A stretch of DNA of 64,000 nucleotides from contig SCUZ01000016.1 of NCBI GenBank assembly GCA_004322535.1, positions 1 to 64,000 on the forward strand. Direction: 5' to 3'. This document shows positions 24,974-61,257 of the stretch, in pieces (the first letter of the stretch is position 1; the number at the start of each line of letters is the position of its first letter). Position numbers and translations under genes: made by a program. The DNA is from Rugosibacter sp. GTDB taxonomy: Bacteria; Pseudomonadota; Gammaproteobacteria; Burkholderiales; Rhodocyclaceae. The notes below the pieces were generated by a model, which had not been told where the DNA came from, searched no databases, and saw nothing but the letters and a program-made list of their open reading frames with translations.

Positions 24974-25816
24974 TCATCCACTTACCCCTGCGACATACGC
25001 TGCAGTTAGTGGATTAATCGGCGTTTCAAACAGACATTGGCTACGGCCAAATTCAATCAACTTGCCCACACGTTCTTTCATCCAGAAAAAGGCGGCATAG
25101 TTGGCGATGCGCCTCGCCTGAGCTAGGTTATGCGTGACGATCACTACGGTATAGCGACCCCGCAAGCGCTGAATGAGTTCCTCCACGACTCCTGATGAGA
25201 TTGGGTCGAGGGCGCTGCAAGGTTCGTCCATGAGCAGAATTGTCGGCTCCAGAATCAGGGCGCGGGCAATACATAGCCGCTGCTGCTGACCGCCGGAGAG
25301 CGCAAGCGCTGGACTGTCGAGCCGGTTGCTCACCTCGTGCCACAATCCCACGTCACGTAACGCAGTTTCGATTTTGTGCGCCAATTGATCACGATGGTGT
25401 ACCCCGTGTTCGCGCAAAGGAAGTTCCAGATTGCGACGGATGGAAAGCGGAAATGGGTTTGGTTTCTGGAAGATCATCCCGATGCGTCGACGCAGTGCCA
25501 TGACGTCAACATCAGCGCCAAGCAAATTGGTGTCTTCAAATTGGATGCGGCCTTGAACCCGCGCCCCTGGAATCAAATCGGTCAGCCGGTTGAGGGCGGA
25601 CAGAAAACTGGTCTTGCCGCAGCCCGAAGGCCCGATTAGTGCAGTGATGCAGCCCTTGTTGATATCGAGCGATACATCATCCAGCACAGTGGTTGCGTCA
25701 TAGGCAACTGAGAGATTGGTCACGCGAAGGTGCGGCACCGGATCGCAGCATGGTGGCCCCGGTTCAACATCGCCTACCGTATAGGTAGTGACAGGTTCGT
25801 CGCTCAATAATTTCAT
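24974..25816 (-). CDS. pstB: Phosphate ABC transporter ATP-binding protein PstB
   Basis: About 280 residues from the ATG at 25816, which overlaps the pstA stop (ATGA). A longer frame to 25843 lacks a ribosome-binding site. Walker A GPSGCGKTSFLSALNR, signature LSGGQQQRLCIARAL and Walker B ILLMDEPCSALDP are present, with the PstB-like H-loop VTHNLAQARRIA. A leading segment with GPPCCDPVPHLRV replaces the usual short N-terminus. It drives high-affinity phosphate uptake with PstSCA. phoU is not next to it. Confidence 0.94.
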   Translation of the reverse strand: MKLLSDEPVTTYTVGDVEPGPPCCDPVPHLRVTNLSVAYDATTVLDDVSLDINKGCITALIGPSGCGKTSFLSALNRLTDLIPGARVQGRIQFEDTNLLGADVDVMALRRRIGMIFQKPNPFPLSIRRNLELPLREHGVHHRDQLAHKIETALRDVGLWHEVSNRLDSPALALSGGQQQRLCIARALILEPTILLMDEPCSALDPISSGVVEELIQRLRGRYTVVIVTHNLAQARRIANYAAFFWMKERVGKLIEFGRSQCLFETPINPLTAAYVAGVSG

Positions 25817-26646
25817 GATAGGGTGATTCTCCTGGTCATCCATCGATCGGAAAGCGCAAACGCACTGCTGTTGATGGCAACGATCAACAAGACCAATACC
25901 AAGGCGGAGGCATAGGCCGCCGCATCACCACCAGTGACGTTCATCGATAGATCGTAGATATGAACGGCGAGCGAACGACCGGAGTCGGACAGCGAGCCAG
26001 GCATGCGGTCCACGTAGCCGCTAGTGAAGATCAACGCCGCAGTCTCGGCCGTGGCGCGGCCCATGCCTAATATGAATCCTGCGACAATGCTTGGCGCAGC
26101 GGCTCGCAGCAGGATATGCCATAAGGCAGTCGCACGCGTCATACCCAGTGCAGCCGCGCTTTGACGCCAGTCTGCACCAATGGAAGAAAGTCCAGCTTCG
26201 CTGGTGCGAATGAAGATGGGCAGAATCATGCAGGCCAAGGTCAACCCGCCCGAGAGGATCGAGAACCCGAGCCCTAGAAACATGCTGAAGAAAGCATTGC
26301 CAAACAGCCCGAAAACGATGGATGGCACCCCGGCCAGCACATCGAGACTCAGACGGACGGCCCGTCCCAGCGCAACTTTGTGCTGGGCATACTCGGCCAA
26401 CCATACAGCAGCACCGAGACCCAATGGAATCGCTGCCGCCATCGCCACGGCGAGAATCAACAGCGTAGAGACCAGGATGGGTGCGATGCCGCCAGCGCGC
26501 CCTGCGTTCGACGGTGCCGATATAAAAAACTGCCATGACAGATGCGGCACACCACGCCAGATCAGGTCGCCCAGCAACCAGAAAAAAGTACACGCCACCA
26601 GTAGCGCGGCGCCCCAGATGGCATGGGTGAAGGCGCGATCAGACAT
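25813..26646 (-). CDS. pstA: Phosphate ABC transporter permease PstA
   Basis: A 277-residue integral membrane permease with about six helices. The binding-protein-dependent transport signature is visible as AALGMTRATALWHILLRAA. It overlaps pstC by 8 bp and pstB by 4 bp, so pstSCAB is translated as a compact operon. Confidence 0.93.
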   Translation of the reverse strand: MSDRAFTHAIWGAALLVACTFFWLLGDLIWRGVPHLSWQFFISAPSNAGRAGGIAPILVSTLLILAVAMAAAIPLGLGAAVWLAEYAQHKVALGRAVRLSLDVLAGVPSIVFGLFGNAFFSMFLGLGFSILSGGLTLACMILPIFIRTSEAGLSSIGADWRQSAAALGMTRATALWHILLRAAAPSIVAGFILGMGRATAETAALIFTSGYVDRMPGSLSDSGRSLAVHIYDLSMNVTGGDAAAYASALVLVLLIVAINSSAFALSDRWMTRRITLS

Positions 26647-27517
26647 GGCGCAGGTTATCCGTTACCCGTGCCGCCAGCCAGGCAAGCAGCAGCACCAGCG
26701 ATGTCAGAAGCAGACCGGAAGCAAACAGGCCGGCACGATGGGTGCCGGTGGCGTAGGCCATTTCAAGTGCGATATTGGCAGTCAGGACACGAACCGGTTC
26801 GAACAAGCTGGTGGGATTCTGGACGACATTACCTGCCACCATCAGCACTGCCATGGTCTCACCGAGGGCACGCACAGTGGCGAGCAAAATGCCACTGAGT
26901 ATGCCATTACGGGCAGCAGGCACGGTCACCCCGAGAATGGTGCCTTTCTGTGTTAGTCCTAGCGCGGCAGCGCCATTCAACAAGGATTTTGGCACTGCAC
27001 CCAGCGCTGTCGCACTGGTGAGCGTTACTGTGGGCAGAATCATTAACGCCAGAATCAGGATTGCGCTCAGCAGGCTGGTGCCTAGCGGCTGCCAATGGGC
27101 GACTAACGGCACCAGCACAGTCAATCCCCATAGGCCATACACTACCGATGGAATACCGGCAAGTAACGCTAGCACTGAACGATACAGCTTGGCGATAGCG
27201 GGCGGTGCATAGAAGCACTGGAATATCGCCCCTGCCAGACCAAGCGGCACGGCCAACAGTACCGCCCCGAACGCGGCAGCGAATGTAGCCCAGACCATGG
27301 ACAGCAAACCGAAACGACCTTCCAATGGATACCAGTTGTCATCGGCAAAAAAACGCTGCCAACCGCCTGCATTCAGCACCGGCCACGCTTCGTGTATCAA
27401 AAAGCCTACCACCAAAAGAAGTATCAGTGCTGCGCCTGCGGCTAGCAAGGCGAGCAGCGGTGCCAAACGCTGGTCAGCGTTCCACTGGGACAAAGAATTG
27501 CGCCTCGATGAGATCAT
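26639..27517 (-). CDS. pstC: Phosphate ABC transporter permease PstC
   Basis: A 292-residue permease with about six membrane helices and the EAA-loop stretch ALGLTQKGTILGVTVPAA. Its 5' end overlaps the 3' end of pstS by 44 bp. It pairs with PstA in the inner-membrane channel. Confidence 0.93.
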   Translation of the reverse strand: MISSRRNSLSQWNADQRLAPLLALLAAGAALILLLVVGFLIHEAWPVLNAGGWQRFFADDNWYPLEGRFGLLSMVWATFAAAFGAVLLAVPLGLAGAIFQCFYAPPAIAKLYRSVLALLAGIPSVVYGLWGLTVLVPLVAHWQPLGTSLLSAILILALMILPTVTLTSATALGAVPKSLLNGAAALGLTQKGTILGVTVPAARNGILSGILLATVRALGETMAVLMVAGNVVQNPTSLFEPVRVLTANIALEMAYATGTHRAGLFASGLLLTSLVLLLAWLAARVTDNLRHV

Positions 27518-28292
27518 TTACCCTCCTGGAGCGTGCAAAGTCGATAAATCGCTTGGCCAATGCGGGGGGCACGCCCTTGGTGACCAGATTGAGCGGTCGT
27601 GACAGTGGGAATCGTCCCGCGCGGACGTTTTCCACGGTAGCCGCGACGCCGTTCATGGGTAACAGTTTGATAGGTGTGCCTTGTTTTTCTTCAAACTCGG
27701 CACTACCGATGGAAACGTAACCAATGGCTCCTGGGTTGCCCGCCACGGTTTTAATACCCTGCTGATTTTCGCCAATCACAGCTTGGGCTTTTATCTGGCT
27801 GTTCTTGAGTTTGAAGTGCTGTAGAAAAAGCTCCAGCGTCGAGCGGCCTTCTGCCTTATTGACAACGGTGATACGCGCATCCTTTCCACCAACTTCTTTC
27901 CAGTTGGTGATGCGCCCGATATATATCGCCCTGATTTGGTCGTCGGACAAAGATTTCACGGGATTATTGCTGTGCAGGATGAGACCCACGCCATCCATCG
28001 CGATCGTGTGCGCAACCAGGTCATGCTCATCCGGATTGAGCGCGCGCGAGACTTCACCGATGTCAGCCAGACCTGAACGGGCATCTGCCACGCCACGTGA
28101 CGAACCGCCCGATTGCACATCGACCTGGACGCCGGGATTCTGTTGCTCGAAACGTTTGCCGATTTCGAGCGCAAGCGGCGCGATGGTGCTGGAGCCAGTC
28201 AGCATGAGCCGATCAGCCGCGTGTGCAACGACGACAAAACTAAGCACACCGAATACTGCAATCATCGGCTTGCACCACGCGCTTATCTTCAT
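27474..28292 (-). CDS. pstS: Phosphate-binding periplasmic protein PstS
   Basis: 272 residues from the ATG at 28292, behind AAGGGA; an upstream in-frame TTG at 28307 is less likely. A signal peptide (MIAVFGVLSFVVVAHA) is followed by LMLTGSSTIAPLALEIGKRF and the phosphate-binding GGSSRGVADARSGLADIG segment. This is the short type of PstS. No clear Pho box was found in the upstream region by eye. Confidence 0.9.
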   Translation of the reverse strand: MKISAWCKPMIAVFGVLSFVVVAHAADRLMLTGSSTIAPLALEIGKRFEQQNPGVQVDVQSGGSSRGVADARSGLADIGEVSRALNPDEHDLVAHTIAMDGVGLILHSNNPVKSLSDDQIRAIYIGRITNWKEVGGKDARITVVNKAEGRSTLELFLQHFKLKNSQIKAQAVIGENQQGIKTVAGNPGAIGYVSIGSAEFEEKQGTPIKLLPMNGVAATVENVRAGRFPLSRPLNLVTKGVPPALAKRFIDFARSRRVNDLIEAQFFVPVER

Positions 28293-28452
28293 CGGCATTC
28301 CCTTCAAAGTAAAAGTGTGTTTTTAGCAAAAGACAAAAGTTTTGAGCCCATCTGCATGCTGGCCGCCGTAGAAATCCTCAATGAGGTTGTGCATGCATGG
28401 CTAAAAACAACACGAATAGCTTGGGTGTTGGTCGTTACGGCCTACCTGTTTC

Positions 28453-29421
28453 TTACGATCCAGGAGACTTTTTATTTTTTGAGTTACTTCCTGTTTTCGC
28501 CGAATAAACTTCGGTATCTGGGTGGAATGCGTACCAAGCAAACCAATAAGTCAGCAGGCTGGTTACTTCTTTGCCGTGAGCGTCGTTGACAACAACGGTC
28601 TGGCTTTTGCGATCAAATTGAACATTCAGCGAATGTCCAGCGACAACATCGCGAATGGTCGACGCCCCTTGCTGTAATTCAACCAATGGATAGGCTTTGT
28701 AGTGGCCTGAAATTTCAATACCAATAACGACGTCCTTGTACTCATAACTCGTCGGCGCTATCGGATTGAACGGGAAATAGGTTACGGGCGATTCCGCATA
28801 ACCACCATAGGGATCTTTTTCATAGTCCCTCAGATACCCAGTATCTTCAGAGAGAACCAAGGTATCGGGGTGCTTTGCTCGCCACCACTTCCAAGTGGTA
28901 TTGCTGACCGGTATAGGTTCTAACTTCTCCCCCTTGAGGGTGCCGGTAACAGCTTGGTGACCTATCTGCGACCAGAGTGATTCGGTTTCACGGTCATAGA
29001 GCAGCACGTTACTGTTATAGAGAAGACCGGAAACTCCGAATGTCGCTGGTTTGCCTTTGACGGTCGCCCGGAATACGACGCCGCTACGGCACAAAGGGCA
29101 ATAGGTCACGACAATGTTCTCGGTATCAAACTTGTCATTGACAATCTCGTGCCAATTGAGAATCTGAACCGGATAAGCCTTGGCCATGCCGTTGTAAACA
29201 ACGCCCAGGACGCGGTCGTCTGCCTTGAGGTTGGCTTTCCCAGCCGGCAGGAATTTCGGCTGGTTAATGGAGGGAATACCATCCTTCGGCGGCCCGCCTT
29301 CCAGAGTTTCCTTATCCGGAATGCTCGCACCGTTTAGATCGAATCCGTTGACAACATCCGCCGATGCAAATTGGCTGATTGATAGGGTGGCGATGGCCGC
29401 CAGTAGAAAATGGTATTTCAT
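28453..29421 (-). CDS. DUF3179 domain protein, secreted
   Basis: A 322-residue protein with a signal peptide (KYHFLLAAIATLSISQFASA). The DUF3179 core is recognisable from VVYNGMAKAYPVQILNWHE, VTYCPLCRSGVVF with a CPLC motif, and SLWSQIGHQAVTG. The CPLC may bind metal or be redox active, but the family function is unknown. It is separated from pstS by 160 bp and reads the same way; independent transcription is likely. Confidence 0.88.
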   Translation of the reverse strand: MKYHFLLAAIATLSISQFASADVVNGFDLNGASIPDKETLEGGPPKDGIPSINQPKFLPAGKANLKADDRVLGVVYNGMAKAYPVQILNWHEIVNDKFDTENIVVTYCPLCRSGVVFRATVKGKPATFGVSGLLYNSNVLLYDRETESLWSQIGHQAVTGTLKGEKLEPIPVSNTTWKWWRAKHPDTLVLSEDTGYLRDYEKDPYGGYAESPVTYFPFNPIAPTSYEYKDVVIGIEISGHYKAYPLVELQQGASTIRDVVAGHSLNVQFDRKSQTVVVNDAHGKEVTSLLTYWFAWYAFHPDTEVYSAKTGSNSKNKKSPGS

Positions 29422-29682
29422 GACGATTCCTTCTTGTTGATCTTTGAGGATTCGTCGTCGAATCAGGCGTATTCCTTACAGGGGTGGGAAGTGCCAATCG
29501 CTAACTGGGTAGTAGCGCCAGTTTCGACAGCATTACTATCAACAATCGATTCTCGGAATGGGTGTAAGAAATAAACCCCAGGAAACGACTACCGACTACA
29601 GTGGTGACCACGGGCATTTACCCAGTATTCAGCGTCTGGTAGGGCTCAAGTCATTGATGTGTATTAATTTTTGATTCAATTC

Positions 29683-29696
29683 GCCTCGTATGAGGC
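29683..29696 (+). promoter_or_regulatory. Small leader hairpin before the KCGA-repeat gene
   Basis: GCCTC and GAGGC form a five-bp stem with loop GTAT, 20-33 bp before the ATG at 29716 and just ahead of the AGGAG ribosome-binding site. Comparable short hairpins precede the two DUF2282 genes at 61.0 and 61.6 kb. Function is inferred and weak. Confidence 0.35.
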
Positions 29697-29715
29697 ACCC
29701 CTTTAGGAGAAAGTC

Positions 29716-29988
29716 ATGATGTCCAAATTTTCAAAGCTGTCCATCGCCGCCCTGACCGCCGCAACCTTTGCGCTGCCAGCTGCTTCTGCAAATGCTGAGG
29801 CTGATATGGCAAAGTGCGGTGCAAAATGTCATCCAGCTAAAGTGATGAAACACAAAAAACACGCTAAACATCACAAGTGCAGCTCTAAGTGTGGTACGAA
29901 ATGCGCGGCCAAGTGTGGTGCGAAGTGCGGCGCCAAATGTGGTGCCAAGTGCGGAGCCAAATGTGGTGCCAAGTGCGGAGCACATTAA
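29716..29988 (+). CDS. Secreted KCGA-repeat Cys-rich peptide
   Basis: A 90-residue protein with an N-terminal signal peptide (KLSIAALTAATFALPAASANA, cleavage near residue 27). A Lys/His-rich segment with KCHPAKVMKHKKHAKHHKCSS follows. The C-terminal third is a regular KCGA/KCGT/KCAA repeat with a Cys at every fourth residue, nine such Cys in a row, ending GAH. The repeat is in a 12-bp DNA period, but the codons vary (AAG/AAA, TGT/TGC, GCC/GCG), so it is maintained as protein. High Cys plus His suggests metal binding. Low-complexity Cys peptides of this type are known or predicted substrates of DUF692 (MNIO) enzymes, but none lies beside this gene. Confidence 0.85.
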   Translation: MMSKFSKLSIAALTAATFALPAASANAEADMAKCGAKCHPAKVMKHKKHAKHHKCSSKCGTKCAAKCGAKCGAKCGAKCGAKCGAKCGAH

Positions 29989-30001
29989 TTAGCTAAAAAA
30001 A

Positions 30002-30040
30002 CCGCATACGGAGCACGATTCTGCTCTGTATGCGGGGTTT
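30002..30040 (+). terminator. Terminator-like hairpin after the KCGA-repeat gene
   Basis: CCGCATAC pairs with GTATGCGG, extended inside by GAGCA and TGCTC around one mismatch, and followed by GGTTT. It lies 14 bp after the stop at 29988 and separates the peptide gene from the conserved protein at 30069. A mono-cistronic message for the peptide is therefore likely. Confidence 0.65.
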
Positions 30041-30068
30041 ATTGACCACAATGAAAAGTTAACTCGTG

Positions 30069-30797
30069 ATGTCGGCAAAAAAAAACGCGAATAGCCTCCT
30101 GAATGCTGCCGACGAGGCAGCGATGCTCCAATCAGCAGAGCGCTTGTTTGCCTGCTATGAACGGCTGCAAAGCGAGCAGCAGCATTTGCTGACGCCATTG
30201 TTGAATGGGGCATCCCCCAAACAATGGATGCATTATCCGGAAGATGATGTGATCGACCATCAATCCGGCTACCAATATTTTTATCATTCTCATTCGCCAG
30301 AAGACCGCCCTGATTCGTCAGAGCATGGTCACTTTCATCTGTTTGCGCGTGTCGATGGCGGGGTTCTCCTTACTGATGCTAAGCGCGAATGGCAGTTTTT
30401 GAAGACCTTGAAATCTGCTTCTGCCAAGAAAAGCAAAACAGTCAGTCTTATGTGCATTTCTTTGGGTGCGAAGGGTGTTCCAACTTCGCTATTTACGGTA
30501 AACCGATGGGTTACCGGCGATCACTTGTTGAGCGCAGATGCAACGCTTACCCTGCTTAAAGACTTCCGCGTCGCCACGCCTGGTTTTGAGCTGATCAATG
30601 AATGGTTACGGGCAATGATCGGGCTCTTCTGGCCCCAGATCGTCGACCTGCTGCGGCAACGGGATCTTAAATTGAAGTCACTCATTACGAATGGCTATTC
30701 GGGTGCCAACCTTCTCGACAATAACGCGGTTGAATTGCTTTCTGAATTCGATGTGGATATAGATCGTCAGGTGGGATGGCTGATGCAAGGCCATTAG
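30069..30797 (+). CDS. Conserved protein with YHSH and EHGHFH motifs
   Basis: About 242 residues; start ATG at 30069 or the GTG just before it. The middle holds MHYPEDDVIDHQSGYQYFYH followed by SHSPEDRPDSSEHGHFHLF. A family of conserved bacterial proteins of unknown function (recalled as DUF6969-like, not certain) has this pattern. The clustered His residues could bind metal. The C-terminal region is helical. It is the gene after the KCGA-repeat peptide on the same strand, about 80 bp away, but a hairpin stands between. No function is assigned. Confidence 0.6.
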   Translation: MSAKKNANSLLNAADEAAMLQSAERLFACYERLQSEQQHLLTPLLNGASPKQWMHYPEDDVIDHQSGYQYFYHSHSPEDRPDSSEHGHFHLFARVDGGVLLTDAKREWQFLKTLKSASAKKSKTVSLMCISLGAKGVPTSLFTVNRWVTGDHLLSADATLTLLKDFRVATPGFELINEWLRAMIGLFWPQIVDLLRQRDLKLKSLITNGYSGANLLDNNAVELLSEFDVDIDRQVGWLMQGH

Positions 30798-30833
30798 AGA
30801 TGCAATAGGCGCAACAAAGATGCTGAAAATGTC

Positions 30834-32861
30834 ATGGACCAGTCCTTATGGCGGCACGTCTGGATCGAATTGTCAGTGCTGCTTGAGGTTAAGAGAAAAA
30901 TAAACCACGATGACTCTTCCTTATGGCTGCTTATGAAGACTGATAACGCACATCATCGTTGGAGCATCTATGGTCTTTTGGCGGTTATCGTTGCGATGAG
31001 CATCGGGTTGTCTGCAATCATTGCCCAAACAGGCCAGGAGATTCGTTCAGCAGCCACACCTTTGCTAAAGAAAAAACTACCCCTCCTTGACCAAATATCC
31101 CGGCTTGAAAGCGCACTGTTACAGAACCAGTTGACGCTCAACCAATATTTTGCCTACTCAATCCCGCGTGATCGGTTTCTCGAAGTACAGCAGTCATCCA
31201 GAGCCGAGATCGAAGCACACTTTGCCCAACTCGATACGGCATTTGGCACATCGCCAGAGCTTTCTGCCATGCGCGGCATCAATAACAATTTAATCAGCCT
31301 GGGACCGCATCTCGATGCGCTGATGACCGCCAAGACAATTGACTGGGATGAAGCGCGTGCCGTACTGGTTGCGCTGAATATCCTGACTGTCGAAATTCGC
31401 CAAGAACTCGATAAGCTCAAGACGATCACCGAGACAGAGGTCTACGCTGCCGGAGACCGCACCAGGAGTGGCATAGATCGGATCATCCAACTTGTCTACT
31501 TATATAGCTTGGCGACATTGATTACCGCAGTTTTCGTAATCCACCATATTCGCGCGAGATTACGTTCGGAGCATGAACTCGCGCACCAGGCGACTCATGA
31601 TTTACTGACTGGGTTGGAGAACCGTCGATCCTTCGAACGTCTTCTCACCTCTTTGCCAGAACATCCACATGCCATCATTCTGGCCTCGATAGACCGGTTC
31701 GAGCGTGTCATCGGCGGTCTGGGGCACGAAGCAGGCGATCAACTGATGCAGAAAATCGCGGCTCGTCTCAGTGAGGCTATGACAGGAACGGGCAGCCGTG
31801 TCTTTCGGCTGGATGGCTATAGTTTCGCTTTGTTATACAGCGTCGGATCTGATCGGCCACCGGTTCGCAGTGTGCTTATGGGGATGCAAGCCGCCATGGC
31901 CGAGCCGTTTGAGGTGGCCAACAATGAGGTATTTTCCCACCTGAGCATAGGAGCTGCGAACCATCCTGCCGATGGTAACGATGCCGGTAGCCTGATGCGA
32001 AATGCAGATGCTGCGCTACAGGCAGCACGCCAGGGCGGGGGTAATGAATTCGTTATCTATTCACACGAGCTTAATGCCCAGACACAGGAGCGCCTTGTGC
32101 TGGAAGCGCAGCTGAGCCATGCGCTCGAACGCGAAGAGTTGGTACTTCATTATCAGCCGCAACAAAATCTGTCACGCGGCACACTGATCGGATTTGAGTC
32201 ATTGGTGCGCTGGCAGCGCGGTAGCGAGATGATTTCACCGGCAGAGTTTATTCCGCTGGCCGAAGATTCTGGATTGATTATTCCTATCGGCAACTGGATC
32301 CTGGCCGAGGCTTGCCGGCAGGCGCGACTCTGGAATGAAGAGACAGGACTTGAGCTTGTCGTCGCAATCAATATATCTTCCCTGCAATTTCGGCATCCTG
32401 ATTTTCTGCAAACCGTCAAACAAACGCTTGCCGAAACAGGCGTTGATCCGTCCAGCATCGAGTTGGAAATCACCGAGAGCATTGCGATGCAGAATGCTGA
32501 TTACACCATTAAACTCCTGCAATCACTCCGCCACCTCGGGCTGGAGCTTGTCATCGATGATTTTGGCACCGGTTATTCCAGTCTGGCGTATCTAAAGCGT
32601 TTCCCGCTCAAGAAACTCAAGATCGATCAATCGTTCATTCGCCACCTTAGCCCCGCATCAAATGATGCTGCCATCGTTAAGGCCATTATTTCCCTTGGTC
32701 ATAGCTTGGGCTTTGCGGTCATTGCAGAAGGGGTTGAAACTTCTGAGCAACTCGAATGCCTTTCCCATTGGGGATGCGATGAGATCCAAGGTTTTTATTA
32801 CGGACGTCCATTACCTGCTGAGGTAGCAACTGCATTTATCGGCAAACCACCTACTGTGTAA
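30834..32861 (+). CDS. Membrane GGDEF-EAL protein with degenerate GGDEF
   Basis: About 675 residues; the ATG at 30834 has no clear ribosome-binding site and an in-frame ATG at 30933 is a serious alternative. Two membrane helices (YGLLAVIVAMSIGLSAIIA and LVYLYSLATLITAVFVIHH) bracket a periplasmic sensor of about 160 residues. A GGDEF domain follows in which the signature is RLDGYSF, so cyclase activity is unlikely. The EAL domain has GFESLVRW, ELEITES, DDFGTGYSSLAYLKRF and KIDQSF, all residues for c-di-GMP hydrolysis. Most likely a phosphodiesterase. Confidence 0.85.
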   Translation: MDQSLWRHVWIELSVLLEVKRKINHDDSSLWLLMKTDNAHHRWSIYGLLAVIVAMSIGLSAIIAQTGQEIRSAATPLLKKKLPLLDQISRLESALLQNQLTLNQYFAYSIPRDRFLEVQQSSRAEIEAHFAQLDTAFGTSPELSAMRGINNNLISLGPHLDALMTAKTIDWDEARAVLVALNILTVEIRQELDKLKTITETEVYAAGDRTRSGIDRIIQLVYLYSLATLITAVFVIHHIRARLRSEHELAHQATHDLLTGLENRRSFERLLTSLPEHPHAIILASIDRFERVIGGLGHEAGDQLMQKIAARLSEAMTGTGSRVFRLDGYSFALLYSVGSDRPPVRSVLMGMQAAMAEPFEVANNEVFSHLSIGAANHPADGNDAGSLMRNADAALQAARQGGGNEFVIYSHELNAQTQERLVLEAQLSHALEREELVLHYQPQQNLSRGTLIGFESLVRWQRGSEMISPAEFIPLAEDSGLIIPIGNWILAEACRQARLWNEETGLELVVAINISSLQFRHPDFLQTVKQTLAETGVDPSSIELEITESIAMQNADYTIKLLQSLRHLGLELVIDDFGTGYSSLAYLKRFPLKKLKIDQSFIRHLSPASNDAAIVKAIISLGHSLGFAVIAEGVETSEQLECLSHWGCDEIQGFYYGRPLPAEVATAFIGKPPTV

Positions 32862-32948
32862 GGATCCATGCGCTGTGAACGACTCATGGTGGTTGCACTG
32901 CGATCATGCTGTTACGACCCTCACCAACCTATCGAAAGAAAGAAAATC

Positions 32949-33365
32949 ATGAAAGTTGCAAACCTGAATAAATTTTTCAAGACTTTGCTGCTGTTGGCAG
33001 GATGGCTAATATCGTTCAGTGTATTTGCGCTAGAAAGCGAACCCTTCAGCGAGGCGCGGTTTAAGGAACTACAGGCCAAAGACCAGTTGATTTTGGTCGA
33101 TGTCAGCGCTACTTGGTGCCCAACATGCAAAAAACAGAAGGCTATTTTAAGTGACTATCAGCGCGAAAATCCTGGCAGCCGATTACATATCCTGAATGTT
33201 GATTTCGATAACCAAAAAGAGTGGGTCATTTTTTTTAAGGCACCACGGCAGTCTACCTTGGTACTTTATTCCGGCAATGAACAAGTCTGGTTCAGCGTTG
33301 CAGAAACCCGTGAAGAGGTGATCGTGGATGCCATTGAAGCAAATATTCGAAAACACGGGTCGTGA
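32949..33365 (+). CDS. Thioredoxin-fold protein with WCPTC motif, exported
   Basis: 138 residues from the ATG at 32949, preferred because it starts a signal sequence (KFFKTLLLLAGWLISFSVFA) after GAAAGAAAG. An open frame extends upstream to 32868. The active site is SATWCPTCKKQKAIL near residue 58 of the protein. The CcdA-type gene follows with a GTGA overlap, which suggests an electron-relay pair in which the CcdA protein reduces this periplasmic thioredoxin. Confidence 0.88.
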   Translation: MKVANLNKFFKTLLLLAGWLISFSVFALESEPFSEARFKELQAKDQLILVDVSATWCPTCKKQKAILSDYQRENPGSRLHILNVDFDNQKEWVIFFKAPRQSTLVLYSGNEQVWFSVAETREEVIVDAIEANIRKHGS

Positions 33366-34072
33366 ATATTGAACTGACCGCCATTCCGCTGGCGTTCTTT
33401 GCCGGCATGTTTGGTGTGCTATCGCCTTGTGTCTGGCCATTGGTACCTATCGTAATGGGTTCTGCCGCCAGTGGCGGCCGCTTCGGACCTTATGCCTTGG
33501 CGGTGGGGTTGAGCCTGTCATTCGCCATTGCCGGCACGCTGTTGAGCTGGCTGCTGTTGAGCGTAGGGCTGGATCCCGAACTGTTCCGTTATCTGGCCGC
33601 CGCCTTGCTGGTTGTAGTAGCGCTGACGCTGATCAACAAAGCAATCGGCGATTGGCTGACCTTGCGCTTGTCACGGCTGGCCAGCAGGTTCAATGTCGGT
33701 ACGAATTCGGAACTGGGCTGGACAGGCCAGTTTTTCGTGGGTCTGTTGTTAGGCCTGGTTTGGTTGCCCTGCGTTGGCCCAACCCTAGGTGCGGCCATCG
33801 CCTTGGCTTCGATGGGACAAAACCTTGTCACCGCTTTTATCGTCATGCTGGCCTTTGGTGTGGGCACGGCATCTGTGCTGCTGCTCGCTGGTCAGTTGTC
33901 GGGCAGCTTACTGTCCCGCCTGCGCCCCGGCTTGTTGCGTGGCGGTAGCGGCGGTAAAAAGCTGCTTGGCTGGGTGCTGCTGCTTTTGGGGGTTCTCGTC
34001 TTAACCGGTGGGGACAAGCTGCTGGAAGCCTGGGCTGTGTCCTGGTTGCCCGAATGGGCTAGCCAGATATGA
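33362..34072 (+). CDS. CcdA/DsbD-type membrane electron carrier
   Basis: 236 residues with a GTG start overlapping the thioredoxin stop. About six membrane helices. Two conserved Cys in membrane segments are visible: FGVLSPCVWPLVPI near residue 22 and GLVWLPCVGPTLGAAIAL near residue 132, the CcdA redox pair. Such proteins carry electrons from cytoplasmic thioredoxin to periplasmic substrates. Its natural partner is the upstream WCPTC protein. Possible uses include cytochrome c maturation or metal-peptide reduction. Confidence 0.9.
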   Translation: MNIELTAIPLAFFAGMFGVLSPCVWPLVPIVMGSAASGGRFGPYALAVGLSLSFAIAGTLLSWLLLSVGLDPELFRYLAAALLVVVALTLINKAIGDWLTLRLSRLASRFNVGTNSELGWTGQFFVGLLLGLVWLPCVGPTLGAAIALASMGQNLVTAFIVMLAFGVGTASVLLLAGQLSGSLLSRLRPGLLRGGSGGKKLLGWVLLLLGVLVLTGGDKLLEAWAVSWLPEWASQI

Positions 34073-34216
34073 CATCCCTTGTAACAACGCTTTCAGGCTT
34101 GATTCCAAGCCCTGCTCAAATCTTGTCAACTTCGCTGTAAGGAATAGAAAGGCTCATTCGACATTATGGGGGAGAGTAATGCCGCTCTCTCTTACATTTG
34201 GAAAGGAAACCTCATC

Positions 34217-34351
34217 ATGTCTTTAATGTGCACTATAGATAAGAAGTGTTCTGCGACAAAGGGGATGTGTATACACGAGAAAATGATGATGGGCGTCGTT
34301 GTTCTCGGTGTTCTGGCTGCGATTGCCCACTGGGGGTTGAATCTATTTTAA
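34217..34351 (+). CDS. Small membrane peptide with Cys-rich head (44 aa)
   Basis: Start ATG at 34217 behind AAAGGAAA. The peptide has three Cys in the head (LMCTIDKKCSATKGMCIHEK) and a single membrane helix, VVVLGVLAAIAHWGLNLF. An open frame 17 codons longer to 34166 exists but has no ribosome-binding site. Small proteins of this plan occur in other Betaproteobacteria. No function known. Confidence 0.7.
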   Translation: MSLMCTIDKKCSATKGMCIHEKMMMGVVVLGVLAAIAHWGLNLF

Positions 34352-34359
34352 CCATCAGC

Positions 34360-34393
34360 TTCTCGGCCCAATGTAATGTTATTGGGCCGAGAA
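34360..34393 (+). terminator. Perfect 13-bp stem-loop downstream of the small peptide
   Basis: TTCTCGGCCCAAT (34360-34372) pairs perfectly with ATTGGGCCGAGAA (34381-34393) around an 8-nt loop. There is no T tract after it, so it is an unusual terminator or a message-stabilising or protein-binding element. Confidence 0.6.
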
Positions 34394-34528
34394 TAGCGAA
34401 AACCTGAATTCGTGAATGCTCTTCATTTCAGGTTCACGAATAGTTTTGCCATGCCCTTCGTCTTACCAACGCCGACTTTTTGCGAGCAAGGCCTGTCGTA
34501 TGCCAAAACGAGTAACGGACAGGATGCG

Positions 34529-34735
34529 TCACTCACGACGGGTAAAGCGTGTGACCAGAATATTTTCGCAGGTCTTGAACAACAGGTAGAGCGCCAGACT
34601 GACATAGCTGTATCCGAGAAGCTCCAGCAGCTGCTGCAAGGCGCCTTCCCGCAGGATCAGGATGCCGTGGGTGAGAATGGCTTCGATATTGGCGCGAAGC
34701 AGATAAAGCAGGTTGAGCGAAATCACGCCGAACAA
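34529..34735 (-). pseudogene. Small membrane-protein gene split by IS66
   Basis: The fragment encodes the continuous hydrophobic peptide LFGVISLNLLYLLRANIEA and onward, ending FKTCENILVTRFTRRE (68 residues, TTG-initiated as it stands). If the IS66 element and one copy of its 8-bp target duplication are removed, the frame continues into an ATG at 37289-37291 to give 74 residues starting MGLSFLL. The IS insertion therefore displaced the first six codons. No function is recognised. Confidence 0.75.
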
Positions 34736-34742
34736 TAAGAAC
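34735..34742. repeat. IS66 target-site duplication, left copy
   Basis: ATAAGAAC, identical to 37273-37280. The duplication is 8 bp, as is usual for IS66-family insertion. Confidence 0.97.
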
Positions 34743-34789
34743 GTAAGCGTCCGACGCTACCACATCGACAGTAGCGATCCGCTTGTGTA

Positions 34790-36375
34790 TTACGCGGACG
34801 GCGCGAACGGCAGCAGCGAATCAATCTGACTGTTCAGGCAAGTCGGCAGCCGTTCCAGCGTATCTCGTAACCACGCCGCCGGATCAATACCATTGAGTGC
34901 CGCCGTCGCCAGCAAGCTCTGAATCGCCGCCGCCCGTTGTCCGGCGCGCTCCGATCCGGTGAAGAGCCAGTTCTTCTTCCCCAGACAAATCGGACGAATG
35001 GCGTTCTCCACCGGATTGTTATCGATGGGTCGATCACCCCTTTCCGCATTAGCGCCAAGGCCGGCCAGCGCTTCAAACTGTAATCGATCGCCCGTGCCGT
35101 CCCGCTCCCGTCGGCCACCGCCAGACGTATCGTTTTCAACCAGTCATGCATCTGTGCCAGCACCGGCTGAGCCTCCTCCTGGCGTAATTGGGCCCGTTCG
35201 GGTAGCGTCATCTCCTTGCCTCGTGCCTCAATCGCATAGAGTTGGGCAATACGGCGCAACGCCTCCTGCGCAATCGGATTCGCCTGTGCCACGTTCAAAT
35301 CAAAGAACTTGCGCCGTGCATGCGCCCAGCAACCCAGTTCGATGACCCCGGTCGCAAACAAGGCCTTGTAACCCGAGTAGTCATCCACCATGAGCTCACC
35401 CTGCCAGTCGGTCAGAAAGGCTCGGACATGGACCCCGGCGCGGCTGGTCTGATAGTCGAACACCACGATGGGCGGCCCCGTCTCCAGCGCATTGCTACGA
35501 TACGCCCACAGATACGCCCGCTTCGTCTTGCCGCTGCCTGGATCCAGCTGCTGCACCGGCGTTTCATCCGCATGCAGGATCAATCGCTGCCGTATCAGTT
35601 CGGTTAGCCGATCCGCCAGCGGCTCCAGCGCTACCCCGATGCGGCCCACCCAGTCCGCCAGGGTCGAGCGGGAGAGCGTCACCCCGTCCCGCGCGGCGAT
35701 ACGCTCCAGGCGGTACAACGGCAGGTGATCGAGGTACTTGCCGATAATGACCCAGGCCAGCAAGCCGACCGCGGCCATGCCGCCGTCAATGACCGCCGGG
35801 GGAATCGGGGCGGCGGTGACCGTCTCGCAACCCCGGCAGGCGTATTGCGGGCGGATGTGCCGATGTACGAAGAACTTGGCCGGCTCGACATCCAGTTGCT
35901 CGCTGACATCCTCGCCGATCAGGCTCATGAGTTTGCCGCAGTCGGCACAGGTGCACGACTCGGGCTCGTGGCGGTGCTCGATGCGGGTGAGGTGATCGGG
36001 CAAGGGCTGACGCCCGGCCCGGGCGCGTGGCGGCTTGGCGGGTGTCGCGCTCTGGCCAGCGGCAATCGCGTCGAGTTCGGCTTGTTGCTGGGCCAGGCGC
36101 GCTTCGACGGCGGCGATGTCGCTGGCTTGGGTTTCTTCGAACAGCTCCCGGGTTTCCGAGCCCAGGGCTTCGCTCTTGACGCCAAAGCGCATGCGCCGCA
36201 GGTGGGCGATTTCCAAGGCCATCGCTTGAATCTTGAGCGTGGCGGCGTGCAGGTCGGCGCTACGTCGCGCCAGTTCGCCGTCTTTCACCGCCAAGCGTTT
36301 GCACAGCAGTTGCGCGATCGTTTCCGCGAGGGCGGGATCGATGGGCAGGCGGGCAAGTTCGGCGGCGAATTCCAT
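34790..36375 (-). pseudogene. tnpC: IS66 transposase tnpC, frameshifted
   Basis: The main frame (34834-36375) begins MEFAAELARLPIDPALAETI and carries the IS66 zinc-finger region (CTCADCGKLMSLIGEDVSEQ) and the DDE core (ILHADETPVQQ, VDDYSGYKALF). About 35.0 kb the frame changes after RWPALA. The true C-terminus (VENAIRPICLGKKNWLF) continues in the frame ending at 34790. Reading across needs one extra base between roughly 35040 and 35060. Either a real disabling deletion or a sequencing/assembly error. Confidence 0.9.
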
Positions 36376-54249: not shown

Positions 54250-55125
54250 TCAAGTGGCTTTATCTAAGAGCACCGCAAGCCGTTGCTGGGTTTTTGGCGA
54301 CATGGCATCCCAAGGGGTAATCAGAGCACTTGCTAATGCGTTGTGCGCGATGGACGACGGACGTTCCAATCCAAGAATCCGGATAGCGGCAGCAGCAATT
54401 TTTTGTGCCTGCTCAGCGTTTTTCATTAGATTGGCCATCGCCATGTCTGCTGTCACGTCATCTTCTCGTGGATGCCAGCAGTCGTAGTCAGTCACCATGG
54501 CCAGCGTGGCGTAGGCGATCTGGGCTTCTCTGGCCAGTTTGGCTTCCGGCATATTGGTCATGCCGATAACGCTGGCGCGCATGCTGCGGTACCACTGAGA
54601 TTCAGCCAAGGTTGAAAATTGTGGGCCTTCAATGCAAACGTAACTGCCGCCCCGGTACAAATTGATCTGCTCGTCCTGCCTGGTTTTGCCCATAGCGCGT
54701 CCCAGAACGTCGGCCAGGTTCAGGCAGATGGGTTGTGCCATGGAAACATGAGCGACCGCACCATCGCCAAAGAAACTGCTGTCGCGCCGATGGGTCAAGT
54801 CAATGAACTGGGTGGGCAACACCATGTCGAGCGGTTTAATGTCTTCCCGCAACGAGCCAACGGCGGACATGGAAATGAGATAGCGCACACCCATTTGTTT
54901 CATGGCGTGGATATTGGCACGGTAAGGTACCTCCGATGGAATCAACCGATGTCCACGTCCATGGCGAGCCAGAAAGGCCACCGGAACATCATGGACAAGT
55001 CCCCTGACGATGGCGTCGGAAGGTTTTCCGTAGGGAGTATCCAATAGGTGTTCCGTCGGCTGCCGGAGTGCCTCCATTTGATAGAGGCCACTACCGCCGA
55101 TAATGCCAATAAGCGCTTTTTGCAT
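54250..55125 (-). CDS. 5'-methylthioadenosine/methylthioinosine phosphorylase-type protein
   Basis: 291 residues. The purine nucleoside phosphorylase family-2 motifs are IGIIGGSGLYQMEAL and VAFLARHGRGHRLIPSEVPY, with RYLISMSAVGSLREDIKPLD and CIEGPQFSTLAESQWYRS. It cleaves MTA or MTI in methionine salvage; the exact base cannot be read by eye. It converges with the mer-linked run. Confidence 0.88.
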   Translation of the reverse strand: MQKALIGIIGGSGLYQMEALRQPTEHLLDTPYGKPSDAIVRGLVHDVPVAFLARHGRGHRLIPSEVPYRANIHAMKQMGVRYLISMSAVGSLREDIKPLDMVLPTQFIDLTHRRDSSFFGDGAVAHVSMAQPICLNLADVLGRAMGKTRQDEQINLYRGGSYVCIEGPQFSTLAESQWYRSMRASVIGMTNMPEAKLAREAQIAYATLAMVTDYDCWHPREDDVTADMAMANLMKNAEQAQKIAAAAIRILGLERPSSIAHNALASALITPWDAMSPKTQQRLAVLLDKAT

Positions 55126-55373
55126 GGATGCACTTCCATGAATTGATATTTCCTATGGTCGCATCAACTGGCTGACTTCTTACAGCGCATTGGTTGTTCA
55201 AAGTGTAATAACACACCTTGTTGCTGCGACTGAGCTTTAGTGATAACCCTACAGAAAAGACGCCCCAATGACACTTGAAAAGTCAGAAACCTTTCTTATT
55301 ATCAGCAAAGACGATTGCCGAAATGCGAGGCGCCGCGAGCGCTTCGCAGCATTTTTTCTGGATAGATGAACCA

Positions 55374-56486
55374 ATGAAACGCTTGGTTTTGGTTGGCGGT
55401 GGGCATGCCCATCTTTCAGTACTCAGTGCCTTGGCGCGTGAAAAACCAACCGATATGGAGGTGGTATTAGTAACCCCTTCAAGCCATCAAATTTATTCCG
55501 GCATGCTGCCGGGGTGGATTGCGGGGCATTACACGCGTGAGCAATGTCAGATTGATTTACGTCCCTTGGTGCAGGCAGCGAATGTTCGCATGGTGCTGAA
55601 TCATATTGTGGGCATGGATGCTGATCGATGCTGTGTGGCGTTATCGGATGGCCGCCATATTGAATATGACACCTTGTCTCTTGATGTGGGCAGCGAGATT
55701 GATATTTCCTGGCTTGAGATGACGGGCGAAAAACTCTTGCCGGCTAAACCGCTAGACCATTTTTTCAATGCCTGGCCAAAAATTCTGGCGGCGGCCAAAT
55801 CACACTACGGCTATCGGCTGGCTGTGGTTGGGGGTGGTGCTGCCGGAGTAGAAATTGCTTTGGCAGTGCGCTATGCCTTCACTCAAGCAGGGGTTGCTGG
55901 GCATGTGGATCTGGTGACTTCGGCGTCAGGGCTATTGCCCGGGCATGATTCAGGGGTAAAACACCGCGTCGCAGGCGCTTTGGCCAAGGCGCTGATTGCT
56001 GTGCATGGTCTTCGCGGAACCGGCGTGCCAGAAGGGGTGATGCTCTCGGATGCCTCCCTAATCCCAGCAGATTGCGTCATCGCAGCTACGGGTGCCCGTG
56101 CCCCTAGATGGTTGATGCTCTCCCATCTTATGCTGGATGAATATGGTTACATCGCTGTTGATAAGCGCCACCTTAGCCATTCCCATCCAAATGTTTTTGC
56201 TGCGGGTGATGTCTGCTCGCGACAAGATATTGCCATGGCGCGCTCAGGTGTCCATGCGGTACATGTCGGCCCTATGCTGGCGTCAAACTTGTTGGCGGTA
56301 GAGGCTGGGGAGCCGTTGAAGACTTACCAGCCGCGGCGCAGGTCACTATATCTGCTGGCCTGTGGGCCAAAGTATGCCATCGCATCCTGGGGTGGTTTCA
56401 GTGCTGGAGGCAGATGGGTGTGGCACTGGAAAAATTGGATCGACCGACGCTTTGTTGACCGATTTTCGAATCCCCAGCGGCTATAG
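55374..56486 (+). CDS. NDH-2-like FAD/NAD(P) oxidoreductase
   Basis: About 370 residues from the ATG at 55374 (a longer frame to 55275 starts with TTG and is less likely). The first FAD motif is LVLVGGGHAHLSVLSALARE and the second dinucleotide motif is LAVVGGGAAGVEIALAVRY, with FAAGDVCSRQD near the end. It resembles the oxidoreductase half of some SelD-linked proteins and type II NADH dehydrogenases. Its electron acceptor is not known. Confidence 0.8.
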   Translation: MKRLVLVGGGHAHLSVLSALAREKPTDMEVVLVTPSSHQIYSGMLPGWIAGHYTREQCQIDLRPLVQAANVRMVLNHIVGMDADRCCVALSDGRHIEYDTLSLDVGSEIDISWLEMTGEKLLPAKPLDHFFNAWPKILAAAKSHYGYRLAVVGGGAAGVEIALAVRYAFTQAGVAGHVDLVTSASGLLPGHDSGVKHRVAGALAKALIAVHGLRGTGVPEGVMLSDASLIPADCVIAATGARAPRWLMLSHLMLDEYGYIAVDKRHLSHSHPNVFAAGDVCSRQDIAMARSGVHAVHVGPMLASNLLAVEAGEPLKTYQPRRRSLYLLACGPKYAIASWGGFSAGGRWVWHWKNWIDRRFVDRFSNPQRL

Positions 56487-56520
56487 TGTAAAGATTCGTA
56501 TCGCCATCAAAAAATAGGAA

Positions 56521-56754
56521 ATGGGTTCATTTTTTCAGTTGCTACAACTTGCCTGTTCACCTCGTATCGCACTAAGCGCGCTACGTGTCTCGATAGTCGT
56601 CGGTACTGCGTTGAATCTGATCAACCAAGGCGACGTGATCTGGACTGAGAACCCTATCGACTGGTTTCGCCTGTGTCTTAATTATTTAACCCCATACTGT
56701 GTTGCCAGTTACAGTGCTGCGAAGAATGAAATCACCAGGAGAAACAATGAATAA
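56521..56754 (+). CDS. nrtS: NrtS-type small nitrate/nitrite transporter
   Basis: A 77-residue membrane protein with SPRIALSALRVSIVVGTALN and LINQGDVIWTENPIDWFRLCLNYLTPYCVASYSAAK. The pattern is that of the NrtS family proposed to support nitrate/nitrite transport in some bacteria. Its 3' end overlaps the start of the sigma factor gene by 8 bp, so they are probably co-transcribed. Confidence 0.7.
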   Translation: MGSFFQLLQLACSPRIALSALRVSIVVGTALNLINQGDVIWTENPIDWFRLCLNYLTPYCVASYSAAKNEITRRNNE

Positions 56755-57382
56755 AAAACTGTTGTCCAGCGTTCATGGGGAAGCAGCACCAGACAAGCAT
56801 CCCATACTTACAGACCCTGTATTTTTGACGGATTTAAGAAAGCAAATGCTCAAATTTGCCACTTTGCAATTATCAGACGGCCATTTGGCTGAAGACGCTG
56901 TGCAAGAAGCATTGATTGGTGCACTCAAGAATGCCAATTCTTTCGGCGGAAGAGCGGCGTTAAAAACTTGGGTTTTTGCTATTTTGAAAAATAAAATCGC
57001 TGATGTTTTGCGACAAAAACAGCGCATGGTAAATGTCGGTAGCCTGTTACGTGAAGATGCAGAGGATGAAGACTTTTCCGCACTGTTTGATCAAAAGCAA
57101 TTCTGGCATGCCGATGAGCGGCCTTCGGCATGGGCTAACCCTGAAGCGGCTTTGCATGAAGGGCAATTTTGGCATGTGTTTGAAGCTTGTTTAGACAATC
57201 TGCCTGAAAAACAAGGACGTGTATTCATGATGCGCGAATTTATCGAGCTTGATTCAAGCGAGATTTGCGTGGCGGTGGGGATTACCGTCAGCAACCTCAA
57301 TGTGATGTTGCATCGTGCACGCATACGCTTGCGCGAGTGCCTTGAAAATAAGTGGTTTTTGAATGAGGAGAGAGCATCGTGA
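56747..57382 (+). CDS. ECF-type RNA polymerase sigma factor
   Basis: 211 residues from the ATG at 56747 behind AGGAG. Region 2 has FATLQLSDGHLAEDAVQEAL and WVFAILKNKIADVLRQKQR; region 4 has LPEKQGRVFMMREFIELDSSEI and SNLNVMLHRARIRLRE. The zinc anti-sigma gene follows at 57379 with a GTGA overlap. Such pairs head bufferin-type clusters in other bacteria; control of the DUF2282 genes is inferred. Confidence 0.9.
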   Translation: MNKKLLSSVHGEAAPDKHPILTDPVFLTDLRKQMLKFATLQLSDGHLAEDAVQEALIGALKNANSFGGRAALKTWVFAILKNKIADVLRQKQRMVNVGSLLREDAEDEDFSALFDQKQFWHADERPSAWANPEAALHEGQFWHVFEACLDNLPEKQGRVFMMREFIELDSSEICVAVGITVSNLNVMLHRARIRLRECLENKWFLNEERAS

Positions 57383-57570
57383 ATTGCCGTGAAGCAACCC
57401 GCCTGATGTCAGAGCAACAAGAGCGAGAGCTTGTGCTGCGAGAGCGCCTGCCACTCAAGCTACATGTGATGATGTGCACCGGATGCCGTAATTTTGGCCA
57501 GCAAATGCATACGATCCGTCAGATCGCGCGCACCTATGCCAAGAATGAAGACAAGGACGGTTCGGCATAG
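57379..57570 (+). CDS. zf-HC2-type anti-sigma factor
   Basis: A 63-residue protein with a GTG start overlapping the sigma stop. It has the HxxxCxxC zinc motif HVMMCTGCRNFG and an N-terminal C residue in MNCREATRLMSE. It lacks a membrane segment, so is a short cytoplasmic anti-sigma of the sort paired with ECF factors in metal or redox response. Confidence 0.85.
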   Translation: MNCREATRLMSEQQERELVLRERLPLKLHVMMCTGCRNFGQQMHTIRQIARTYAKNEDKDGSA

Positions 57571-57705
57571 GAAGCATCAAGGAGGCCTCAACGATAAATG
57601 TCGGCGCTGGTGATACGGCGATGAAATGCAAAAAACGAATGTGCTGCTGATCATTTATTGCGGCTCAAAATAAATTTAGGCCTGAGATTAAAAAATCAAG
57701 GCGAA

Positions 57706-58470
57706 TCATGGTCGATCATGCCAGCGCAATGCGGTGTAATCAAAGTTTTCCGCAAGCGTAGGCTTGATGATCTGAAAGTACGGCGAAACATCGAAATCTC
57801 GTGGGGCGAACAGACTGTGATGGCGAACCCGTAAAATTTCTTCGATGCAATCAGGGCAATCAGCGCGGTTGGCGTTGCGGCTGTCAACAACGATAGGCAA
57901 AATAGGATAGCGAATCGACTGAAAGGCTTGAGCAATCAGCGTGGAGCAGATGGCACGCGTGGGATCGCCACTCCCCAGTGCGATCATGCGGCGTCGAAAC
58001 CTTACGGGTACAGGGGGTGTAGGTAGCAGATAACGTGCAAGATCGACTACGTTCCGAAGATCATATTGGTTTCCCAGGCGGGCGATGGCGAATGCGGTGA
58101 CCTTCTGGCAGTCTGCCTGACTCAGGTTAACTGGGTGGCAAATGCGGGTATGCAAATGAGCATATTCCTCAAGCCCCGCGCTGCGCACGCCGGCTACCAT
58201 GTCAACTTCAATGAAACAATGCCCTGCATTGCCATCTGTCTGTGGCAGGTGATTGCCCACAAACAACGCAGCATGCGACCAGGTTGATTGGGTCAGGTAT
58301 TTGATGGCGGTGCTGACACGGGTGTTGCCTTCAATCAATAGTACATCTCCCGGTTGCAGGCAGGTACGCAATCGATCGGAGTCGGTTGGTACGCCGGTGC
58401 TATTAATTTCGATTGTTTTGGTCAGGTAGCTTGCGAGTCGATTACCTAACCAGCCGAGCAGGGATGCCAT
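57706..58470 (-). CDS. YiiX/NlpC-P60-like permuted papain-fold hydrolase
   Basis: 254 residues. LQPGDVLLIEGNTRVSTAIK and QSTWSHAALFVG carry the catalytic His, and RAICSTLIAQAFQSI carries the Cys. The fold belongs to the YiiX/DUF830 group of NlpC/P60-like proteins. Activity might be amidase or lipid hydrolysis. It lies beside the bufferin-type genes in the same direction, but separated by a gap of 27 bp to the DoxX gene. Confidence 0.78.
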   Translation of the reverse strand: MASLLGWLGNRLASYLTKTIEINSTGVPTDSDRLRTCLQPGDVLLIEGNTRVSTAIKYLTQSTWSHAALFVGNHLPQTDGNAGHCFIEVDMVAGVRSAGLEEYAHLHTRICHPVNLSQADCQKVTAFAIARLGNQYDLRNVVDLARYLLPTPPVPVRFRRRMIALGSGDPTRAICSTLIAQAFQSIRYPILPIVVDSRNANRADCPDCIEEILRVRHHSLFAPRDFDVSPYFQIIKPTLAENFDYTALRWHDRP

Positions 58471-58497
58471 CGAGAATGCCTGCGCTATCTCACGTCA

Positions 58498-59004
58498 CTA
58501 CGATTGATAGCGACGGTTAATCCAGTGATCCAGTGATATTTGGCCAGGCCCCTTGGCGATCAACACCAACAACACAGTTGCCCAGACGCCGTGTGTCGGA
58601 TAAGCATCGGGATACACGAATAGCTGGATGGTCGTGGTCATGATGAGCAGTGCCAGCGCAGAAAAACGGGTTGCGAATCCCACGAGCAGCAGAATGGGGA
58701 AAAGATGTTCGGCGAAAGCGGCCATCGGCGCGGCAAGTTCTGGCGGGATGAGTGGCAATTTGTACTCGCTTGCAAATAACTCGACGGCTGAGTCCGATAA
58801 ATGTGGCCAGCCAAGTTGGAATTCGCCATTAATCAGGTCAATGGCTAATCCCTCAATTTTGGTTTGTCCTGACTTCCAGAATACGGCCGCAATTGAAAAT
58901 CGCCCCAAAAACAGGATGAGGGAATCCGGAATGTGACTAAGTATCACAATGAGTCGCCGTACTAGCGTGGCTACCGGTGACATGCTGCTGGTCGTGGTAT
59001 TCAT
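58498..59004 (-). CDS. DoxX family membrane protein
   Basis: 168 residues with four helices. DSLILFLGRFSIAAVFWKSG at the start and the PLIPPELAAPMAAFAEHLFP and ILLLVGFATRFSALALLIM segments are typical of DoxX. DoxX proteins accompany DUF692/DUF2282 genes in bufferin-type clusters. The 22-bp gap to the DUF2063 gene suggests one transcript. Confidence 0.9.
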   Translation of the reverse strand: MNTTTSSMSPVATLVRRLIVILSHIPDSLILFLGRFSIAAVFWKSGQTKIEGLAIDLINGEFQLGWPHLSDSAVELFASEYKLPLIPPELAAPMAAFAEHLFPILLLVGFATRFSALALLIMTTTIQLFVYPDAYPTHGVWATVLLVLIAKGPGQISLDHWINRRYQS

Positions 59005-59025
59005 GGTTACTTCCTCCGTTGTTTA

Positions 59026-60698: not shown

Positions 60699-60727
60699 CG
60701 TGGGCGCTCCGCTTGAAACGCTAGCGA

Positions 60728-61027: not shown

Positions 61028-61257
61028 GGTGAATCTCCTTTGCAGTTTGAGAACGGGATTACCCAGAAGGGTATTTTTATCTTAGCATCAGCCACAAAAG
61101 CCTCGATTTTGAGTGTTTTGACTATCCGCTGATACATAGACGCTGGATGATGCCGGTTTATTACATCGAGAGAGTAGTAAAGCGGCTATTTAGGAATAAC
61201 TCATTGTGTGGTAAGTAAAAATTGACATCCTAAAAACAAGTAAATTAATGCGGTCGG

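Follow-up and report, generated by a model that had tools for sequence, protein, structure and literature searches.

Bufferin systems comprise the precursor BufA together with the MNIO BufB and the DUF2063 protein BufC (PMC12452194). The two-gene module described here resembles them in layout. A gene for a small Sec-exported Cys-containing precursor, the KCxx peptide, is followed by the gene of a cytoplasmic partner, and sigma/anti-sigma factors and DoxX are found in its company, sometimes in one cluster with bufferin genes. However, the partner is a DUF6969 protein, which has no profile relation to MNIO or DUF2063, the peptide lies outside the bufferin models, and the module is found in MNIO-free genomes. 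As these tested defining features fail, the module is not a member of the bufferin system.

Other described systems are similar in single aspects. Like the Buf_EGKCG/oxazolin precursor HvfA, of which a true operon is present on contig C84 of the source genome, the KCxx peptide is secreted and has Lys-Cys-Gly-rich repeats. However, its repeats have a period of four instead of the 17 residues with EGKCG in HvfA, and it has neither an NCBIfam match nor a linked HvfB. Bacterial metallothioneins are also small, Cys- and His-rich, and of low complexity, but the KCxx peptide is exported and strictly periodic, does not match any Pfam model, and is encoded with a dedicated partner. In systems of SoxY with SoxV/SoxW and in ScsBCD-type systems, thioredoxin and CcdA supply reductant to periplasmic Cys. 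Thioredoxin and CcdA are also encoded beside the KCxx module, which differs from these systems in the many Cys per protein and in the cytoplasmic DUF6969 partner. There is no sox or scs operon at this locus of the window, i.e. of the whole 64,000-nucleotide stretch of Rugosibacter sp. DNA that was analysed.

The KCxx peptide and its family

The locus contains the following features:

29705..29709, + strand: Shine-Dalgarno-like sequence AGGAG, 6 nt 5' of the peptide ATG
29716..29988, + strand: secreted KCxx-repeat peptide, 90 aa (ATG 29716, TAA 29986-29988)
29716-29796, + strand: signal peptide of the KCxx peptide, cleavage site placed by eye
30002..30035, + strand: RNA hairpin of 14 bp with GGTTTATT after it, located between the peptide gene and DUF6969 (-29.2 kcal/mol, z -7.5)
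30069..30797, + strand: DUF6969 protein, 242 aa from ATG (PF22308, 2.2e-56), with GTG at 30066 as alternative start
32868..33365, + strand: periplasmic thioredoxin-like protein (CPTC), a recurrent neighbour of the module
33362..34072, + strand: CcdA/DsbD-type membrane electron carrier, a recurrent neighbour of the module

The open reading frame of the peptide is as given in a first-pass annotation of this DNA, and a ribosome-binding site precedes it. The signal part MMSKFSKLSIAALTAATFALPAASANA, called by hydropathy and n-region and not by a dedicated predictor, is followed by the mature part EADMAKCGAKCHPAKVMKHKKHAKHHKCSSKCGTKCAAKCGAKCGAKCGAKCGAKCGAKCGAH. A KCGAKCHP segment and a Lys/His hinge precede nine KCxx units, which are KCSS, KCGT, KCAA and six times KCGA, and the last residue is His. 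The annotation had described nine consecutive KCGx units; nine KCxx units do stand in a row, but just seven of them are KCGx. The 63 mature residues include 16 Lys, 13 Ala, 11 Cys, 8 Gly, and 6 His, in line with the earlier description of a secreted, Cys-rich peptide, and a Sec signal peptide with several Cys is also a trait of bufferins. The codon usage varies from one unit to the next, and the last units contain a near-duplicate of 24 bp.

Pfam (at E<=1), PADLOC, and PHROGs contain no match to the peptide, and the NCBIfam search gave nothing meaningful. When 60 related genomes were searched at the protein level, the peptide retrieved itself alone, an outcome to be expected with a query of low complexity. 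Relatives were found by a DNA pattern of three KC[GA]x codon units and subsequent translation, and the many matches in spurious frames were dropped as they did not encode a signal peptide. The resulting family, mostly from Burkholderiales with a few members from Alphaproteobacteria and other groups, is well beyond chance: it recurs with a strongly conserved signal peptide (alignment consensus LAALTAATLALPAAA) and a conserved Cys pattern. In its members the N-terminal part contains Cys, a hinge rich in Lys and His comes next, and consecutive KC[AG][PA] units then lead up to a terminal N, H, S or K. Seven close pairs of related peptides have pS values of 0.10-0.68 and pN values of 0.00-0.10. Therefore, the peptide is under purifying selection as a protein, as had already been claimed from the codon variation.

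Linkage of the peptide to DUF6969

The main finding is the adjoining partner gene, which the first-pass annotation had overlooked. The search for homologs and their gene neighbourhoods, which it had proposed, yielded both the peptide family and the DUF6969 genes beside it. DUF6969 is encoded directly downstream on the same strand in 33 of 34 loci of secreted KCxx peptides (tblastn of the window neighbours), and these loci had been selected by signal peptide and repeat alone before their neighbours were examined. The 34th locus (L083) stops at a contig end before the position of DUF6969, but L133, of which it is a near-copy, contains the gene. For the reverse direction, PF22308 searches in Pseudomonadota gave 73 loci with DNA, not all of them independent since some share one genus, and in 29 of these 73 the DUF6969 gene is immediately preceded on its strand by an ORF for a secreted Cys-repeat protein, compared to 10 of 864 length-matched control pieces (~1%). 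Twenty further DUF6969 loci without such a directly upstream ORF were fetched at ~16 kb. Fourteen of them, not counting the spurious frame in L233, have a Cys-repeat ORF within 8 kb, often divergent, while 7 of 66 unrelated control loci match within 8 kb, nearly all in a wrong frame with 4-5 repeats. The Cys-repeat ORF of L241 is 32 bp away from DUF6969 and falls narrowly below the signal-peptide threshold. Five loci (L222, L225, L236, L237, and L239) have no Cys-repeat protein within 8 kb of DUF6969. The KCxx peptide and DUF6969 thus form a two-gene module in which the peptide gene comes first, and the suggestion of a stand-alone metallothionein does not hold, because DUF6969 is linked in essentially all relatives.

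The same gene pair is found on a Burkholderia glumae plasmid (WP_012732788.1 / WP_012732787.1) and on Ciceribacter and Sinorhizobium megaplasmids. The Cys motifs of the DUF6969-linked ORFs are very diverse (KCAP, NPCAAK, NPCNPC, NPCNPCAAK, APCAA, SPCGL, AACA, AACAAAC, CCGCC, GCCGCC). Many of the more distant Cys-repeat ORFs carry a fused domain, either a cytochrome P460 or a SoxA/TsdA-type cytochrome c, and the number of NPC units reaches 34. In Alphaproteobacteria the strand opposite to the nearby DUF6969 encodes large secreted proteins in which NPC is repeated 7-34 times (L232:9657-10811, L228:9948-11237, L227:8905-9780), and at least one of them has a C-terminal cytochrome P460 domain. At L110:2-547 a KCGAKC repeat protein is fused in frame to a cytochrome c-like domain (SCATCHT motif), and a divergent DUF6969 member follows.

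In many loci the stop and start codons of the two genes overlap, or nearly so. A hairpin 3' of the peptide gene is found in the window and in three other loci (L056, L098, L104). The window hairpin probably represents a partial terminator, an attenuator or a stabiliser of the mRNA end, and it could lead to more peptide than partner being made. The module is absent from eight genomes of the same genus. The region 25500-36000 has, with the exception of a GGDEF/EAL gene, no DNA counterpart in these eight genomes and is therefore an accessory region.

The DUF6969 protein and its proposed role

The window protein covers the PF22308 domain in full (positions 2-201 of 201) and scores 191.1 bits against a gathering cut-off of 27. 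It does not have a signal peptide, and it is therefore likely to act before export. In an alignment of 49 members (window numbering) H73, H75, H88, H90, P57, F142, N145, V148, and R198 are invariant, and H55, D60, D63, E85, H126, and D199 are nearly so. The resulting pattern is HYPxxDxxD...YxHxH...EHGHxHxF. The two HxH motifs fall on a pair of adjacent predicted strands (68-74, 87-94) and suggest a metal site, so that DUF6969 is a probable metal-site protein. AlphaFold models of the window protein and of the short L156 protein are confident, with a pLDDT of 92 each. Neither has a convincing match in the PDB, as the best values are E 2.3 and 0.27 with Foldseek and Z 2.8 and 3.7 with VIA-align. 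The sequence profile of the family gave nothing below E 0.5 against PDB chains, and the profile relations to the MNIO superfamily and to DUF2063/BufC are nil (hhalign probability 0.1 in each case). Fusions of DUF6969 to other domains were not found. Neither DUF6969 nor the Cys motifs are mentioned in the open-access literature searched, a coverage that excludes most subscription journals.

We propose, with a probability of about 50%, that the two genes form a bufferin-like module in which the peptide buffers soft metals in the periplasm and DUF6969 is dedicated to its maturation, probably as an enzyme. The peptide would be made in the cytoplasm with its Sec signal peptide, and DUF6969, as a soluble cytoplasmic metalloprotein, would act on it prior to export. 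Most likely it would modify the repeated Cys, and possibly it protects them or loads them with metal. The multi-thiol chain in the periplasm may then buffer Cu(I) or another soft metal or, with lower probability, carry sulfur, and the thioredoxin/CcdA pair would supply reducing power to the thiols. The metal buffer suggested in the first-pass annotation thus appears plausible, as a buffer of metal or thiols. This reading is favoured because the Cys motifs vary widely while the DUF6969 residues stay invariant, and because of the near-obligatory linkage, the recurrence of thioredoxin/CcdA, and the company of bufferin-type regulators and operons. It is weakened by the DUF6969 loci without any Cys-repeat protein within 8 kb, by the genomes of the same genus that do not have the module, and by neighbours of other kinds, namely YeeE/YedE, rhodanese, SoxA/TsdA-type cytochromes, cytochrome P460, and FGE-sulfatase proteins.

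DUF6969 could also be a chaperone instead of an enzyme. According to this main rival the peptide is an unmodified periplasmic buffer similar to metallothioneins, and DUF6969 binds metal as a chaperone or loading factor that keeps the peptide reduced and unaggregated until export. The peptide would be well suited, as 11 of its 63 mature residues are Cys and 6 are His, thioredoxin and CcdA as neighbours argue for the importance of free thiols in the periplasm, and a metal carrier would be consistent with the invariant His motifs. However, a catalytic-looking set of His, Asp, Glu, Asn, and Arg residues has been kept in DUF6969 while the partner motifs vary, and the peptide did not match any metallothionein model. 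We regard this explanation as rather unlikely.

Thioredoxin, CcdA and sulfur-related neighbours

Of 30 KCxx loci, 18 encode a periplasmic thioredoxin and/or CcdA a few kb away at most, in several orientations and at least three different arrangements, compared to 0 of 88 control loci. In the window the pair (32868-34072) comes after the GGDEF/EAL gene. This recurrence suggests a need to reduce the peptide thiols, or to maintain them in the reduced state, outside the cytoplasm. DUF3179, a candidate for a conserved upstream neighbour, was rejected because it is not conserved across the loci. A sigma/zf-HC2 pair adjoins the module in the B. glumae plasmid bglu_2p, and NrsF was found once among the neighbours. 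In the wide loci, which are mostly alphaproteobacterial, the neighbours include five cytochromes P460, several cytochromes c, and two rhodaneses (80 scanned). The commonest neighbours of DUF6969 in these wide loci are secreted proteins with an FGE-sulfatase domain (EgtB/SenA-like; e.g. L150:285-1181), which make up 10 of the 80.

YeeE/YedE recurs near DUF6969 in Sinorhizobium and Ciceribacter and, as seen by eye, in L161 and L163. Together with the FGE-sulfatase proteins, cytochromes, and rhodaneses it would be compatible with a sulfur-related role. The Cys-repeat proteins might carry or store sulfane sulfur as persulfide for sulfur metabolism in the periplasm, comparable to SoxY and its partners SoxV/SoxW (CcdA/thioredoxin), and DUF6969 would take part in the sulfur loading. 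Such a role would agree with YeeE/YedE, with the sulfurtransferase or rhodanese genes nearby, with the fusion of Cys repeats to SoxA/TsdA-type cytochromes c, and with the presence of thioredoxin and CcdA. However, sox genes were not seen beside the KCxx loci, and several of the operon partners and regulators are bufferin-like. Sulfur carriage ranks third and is improbable.

MNIOs and the bufferin cluster

The source genome encodes two MNIOs, BufB at 59.8 kb of the window and HvfB on contig C84. The BufB gene adjoins two DUF2282 precursors, DUF2063, and DoxX. On contig C84 (L002:1096-3586) a precursor of the HvfA/EGKCG type is encoded with HvfB, HvfC, and DoxX after a sigma factor. The first-pass annotation had considered that the peptide might be processed in trans by the DUF692 enzyme at 59.8 kb. 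The two MNIOs, the KCG motifs that also occur in the HvfA of C84, and the clusters shared with bufBC in a few relatives would agree with processing by one of the two enzymes. The nearest MNIO is, however, ~30 kb away from the peptide, whose directly next gene is DUF6969, and both MNIOs have adjoining precursors of their own. The peptide does not match the Pfam and NCBIfam models of DUF2282, BufA/BufA2, HvfA, and KCGExKCG. Against the last of these (NF050137) the control peptide of C84 scores 48.1 bits at a cut-off of 19.5. In addition, 12 of the 31 genomes with DUF6969 and a Cys-repeat peptide do not encode any MNIO, and all twelve are 95-100% complete. An MNIO is therefore not required by the DUF6969-type module, and processing in trans is very improbable. 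The module is located directly after bufBC-doxX in L059 and L133 and after bufC-doxX in L164, and in genome G1091 DUF6969 and an MNIO are 0.6 kb apart. These shared clusters suggest a related physiology and not a common enzyme.

The bufferin cluster of the window (54250-62882) stands beside MTA phosphorylase, a TIGR03169 oxidoreductase, an ECF-type sigma factor with zf-HC2, and the arsenosugar radical SAM protein ArsS. In bglu_2p, MTA phosphorylase, arsenosugar glycosyltransferases, and sigma/zf-HC2 are accompanied by the DUF6969 module in place of the bufferin cluster. ECF-like motifs (TGTAAC/TGTAAT...CG) are present upstream of both bufA genes and arsS (61560-61870, 61027-61257) and suggest that these genes form one regulon. 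The TGTAAY motif was not seen upstream of the KCxx peptide.

That the peptide is a functionless low-complexity expansion with DUF6969 as a chance neighbour can practically be dismissed: repeats expand easily, as the near-duplicate in the last units illustrates, but the purifying selection, the linkage far above the control, and the conserved signal peptide contradict it.

Implications

Many orphan secreted Cys-repeat proteins are tied by these results to one uncharacterised family with a metal-site signature. Going further than the maturation of the KCxx peptide, DUF6969 may represent a new class of peptide-modifying metalloenzymes, unrelated to MNIO and without a matching fold in the PDB, that acts on the Cys of many exported Cys-repeat proteins, from short peptides to fusions with cytochrome c and P460. 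The module would then belong to a large undescribed RiPP-like system across Proteobacteria. This extension is tentative, and we place it slightly below even odds. Should DUF6969 turn out to be such an enzyme, the system would be categorically new. Possible outcomes are a new post-translational chemistry or a metal or sulfur buffer parallel to the bufferins, and the module may thus constitute an undescribed route to a metal- or sulfur-handling peptide.
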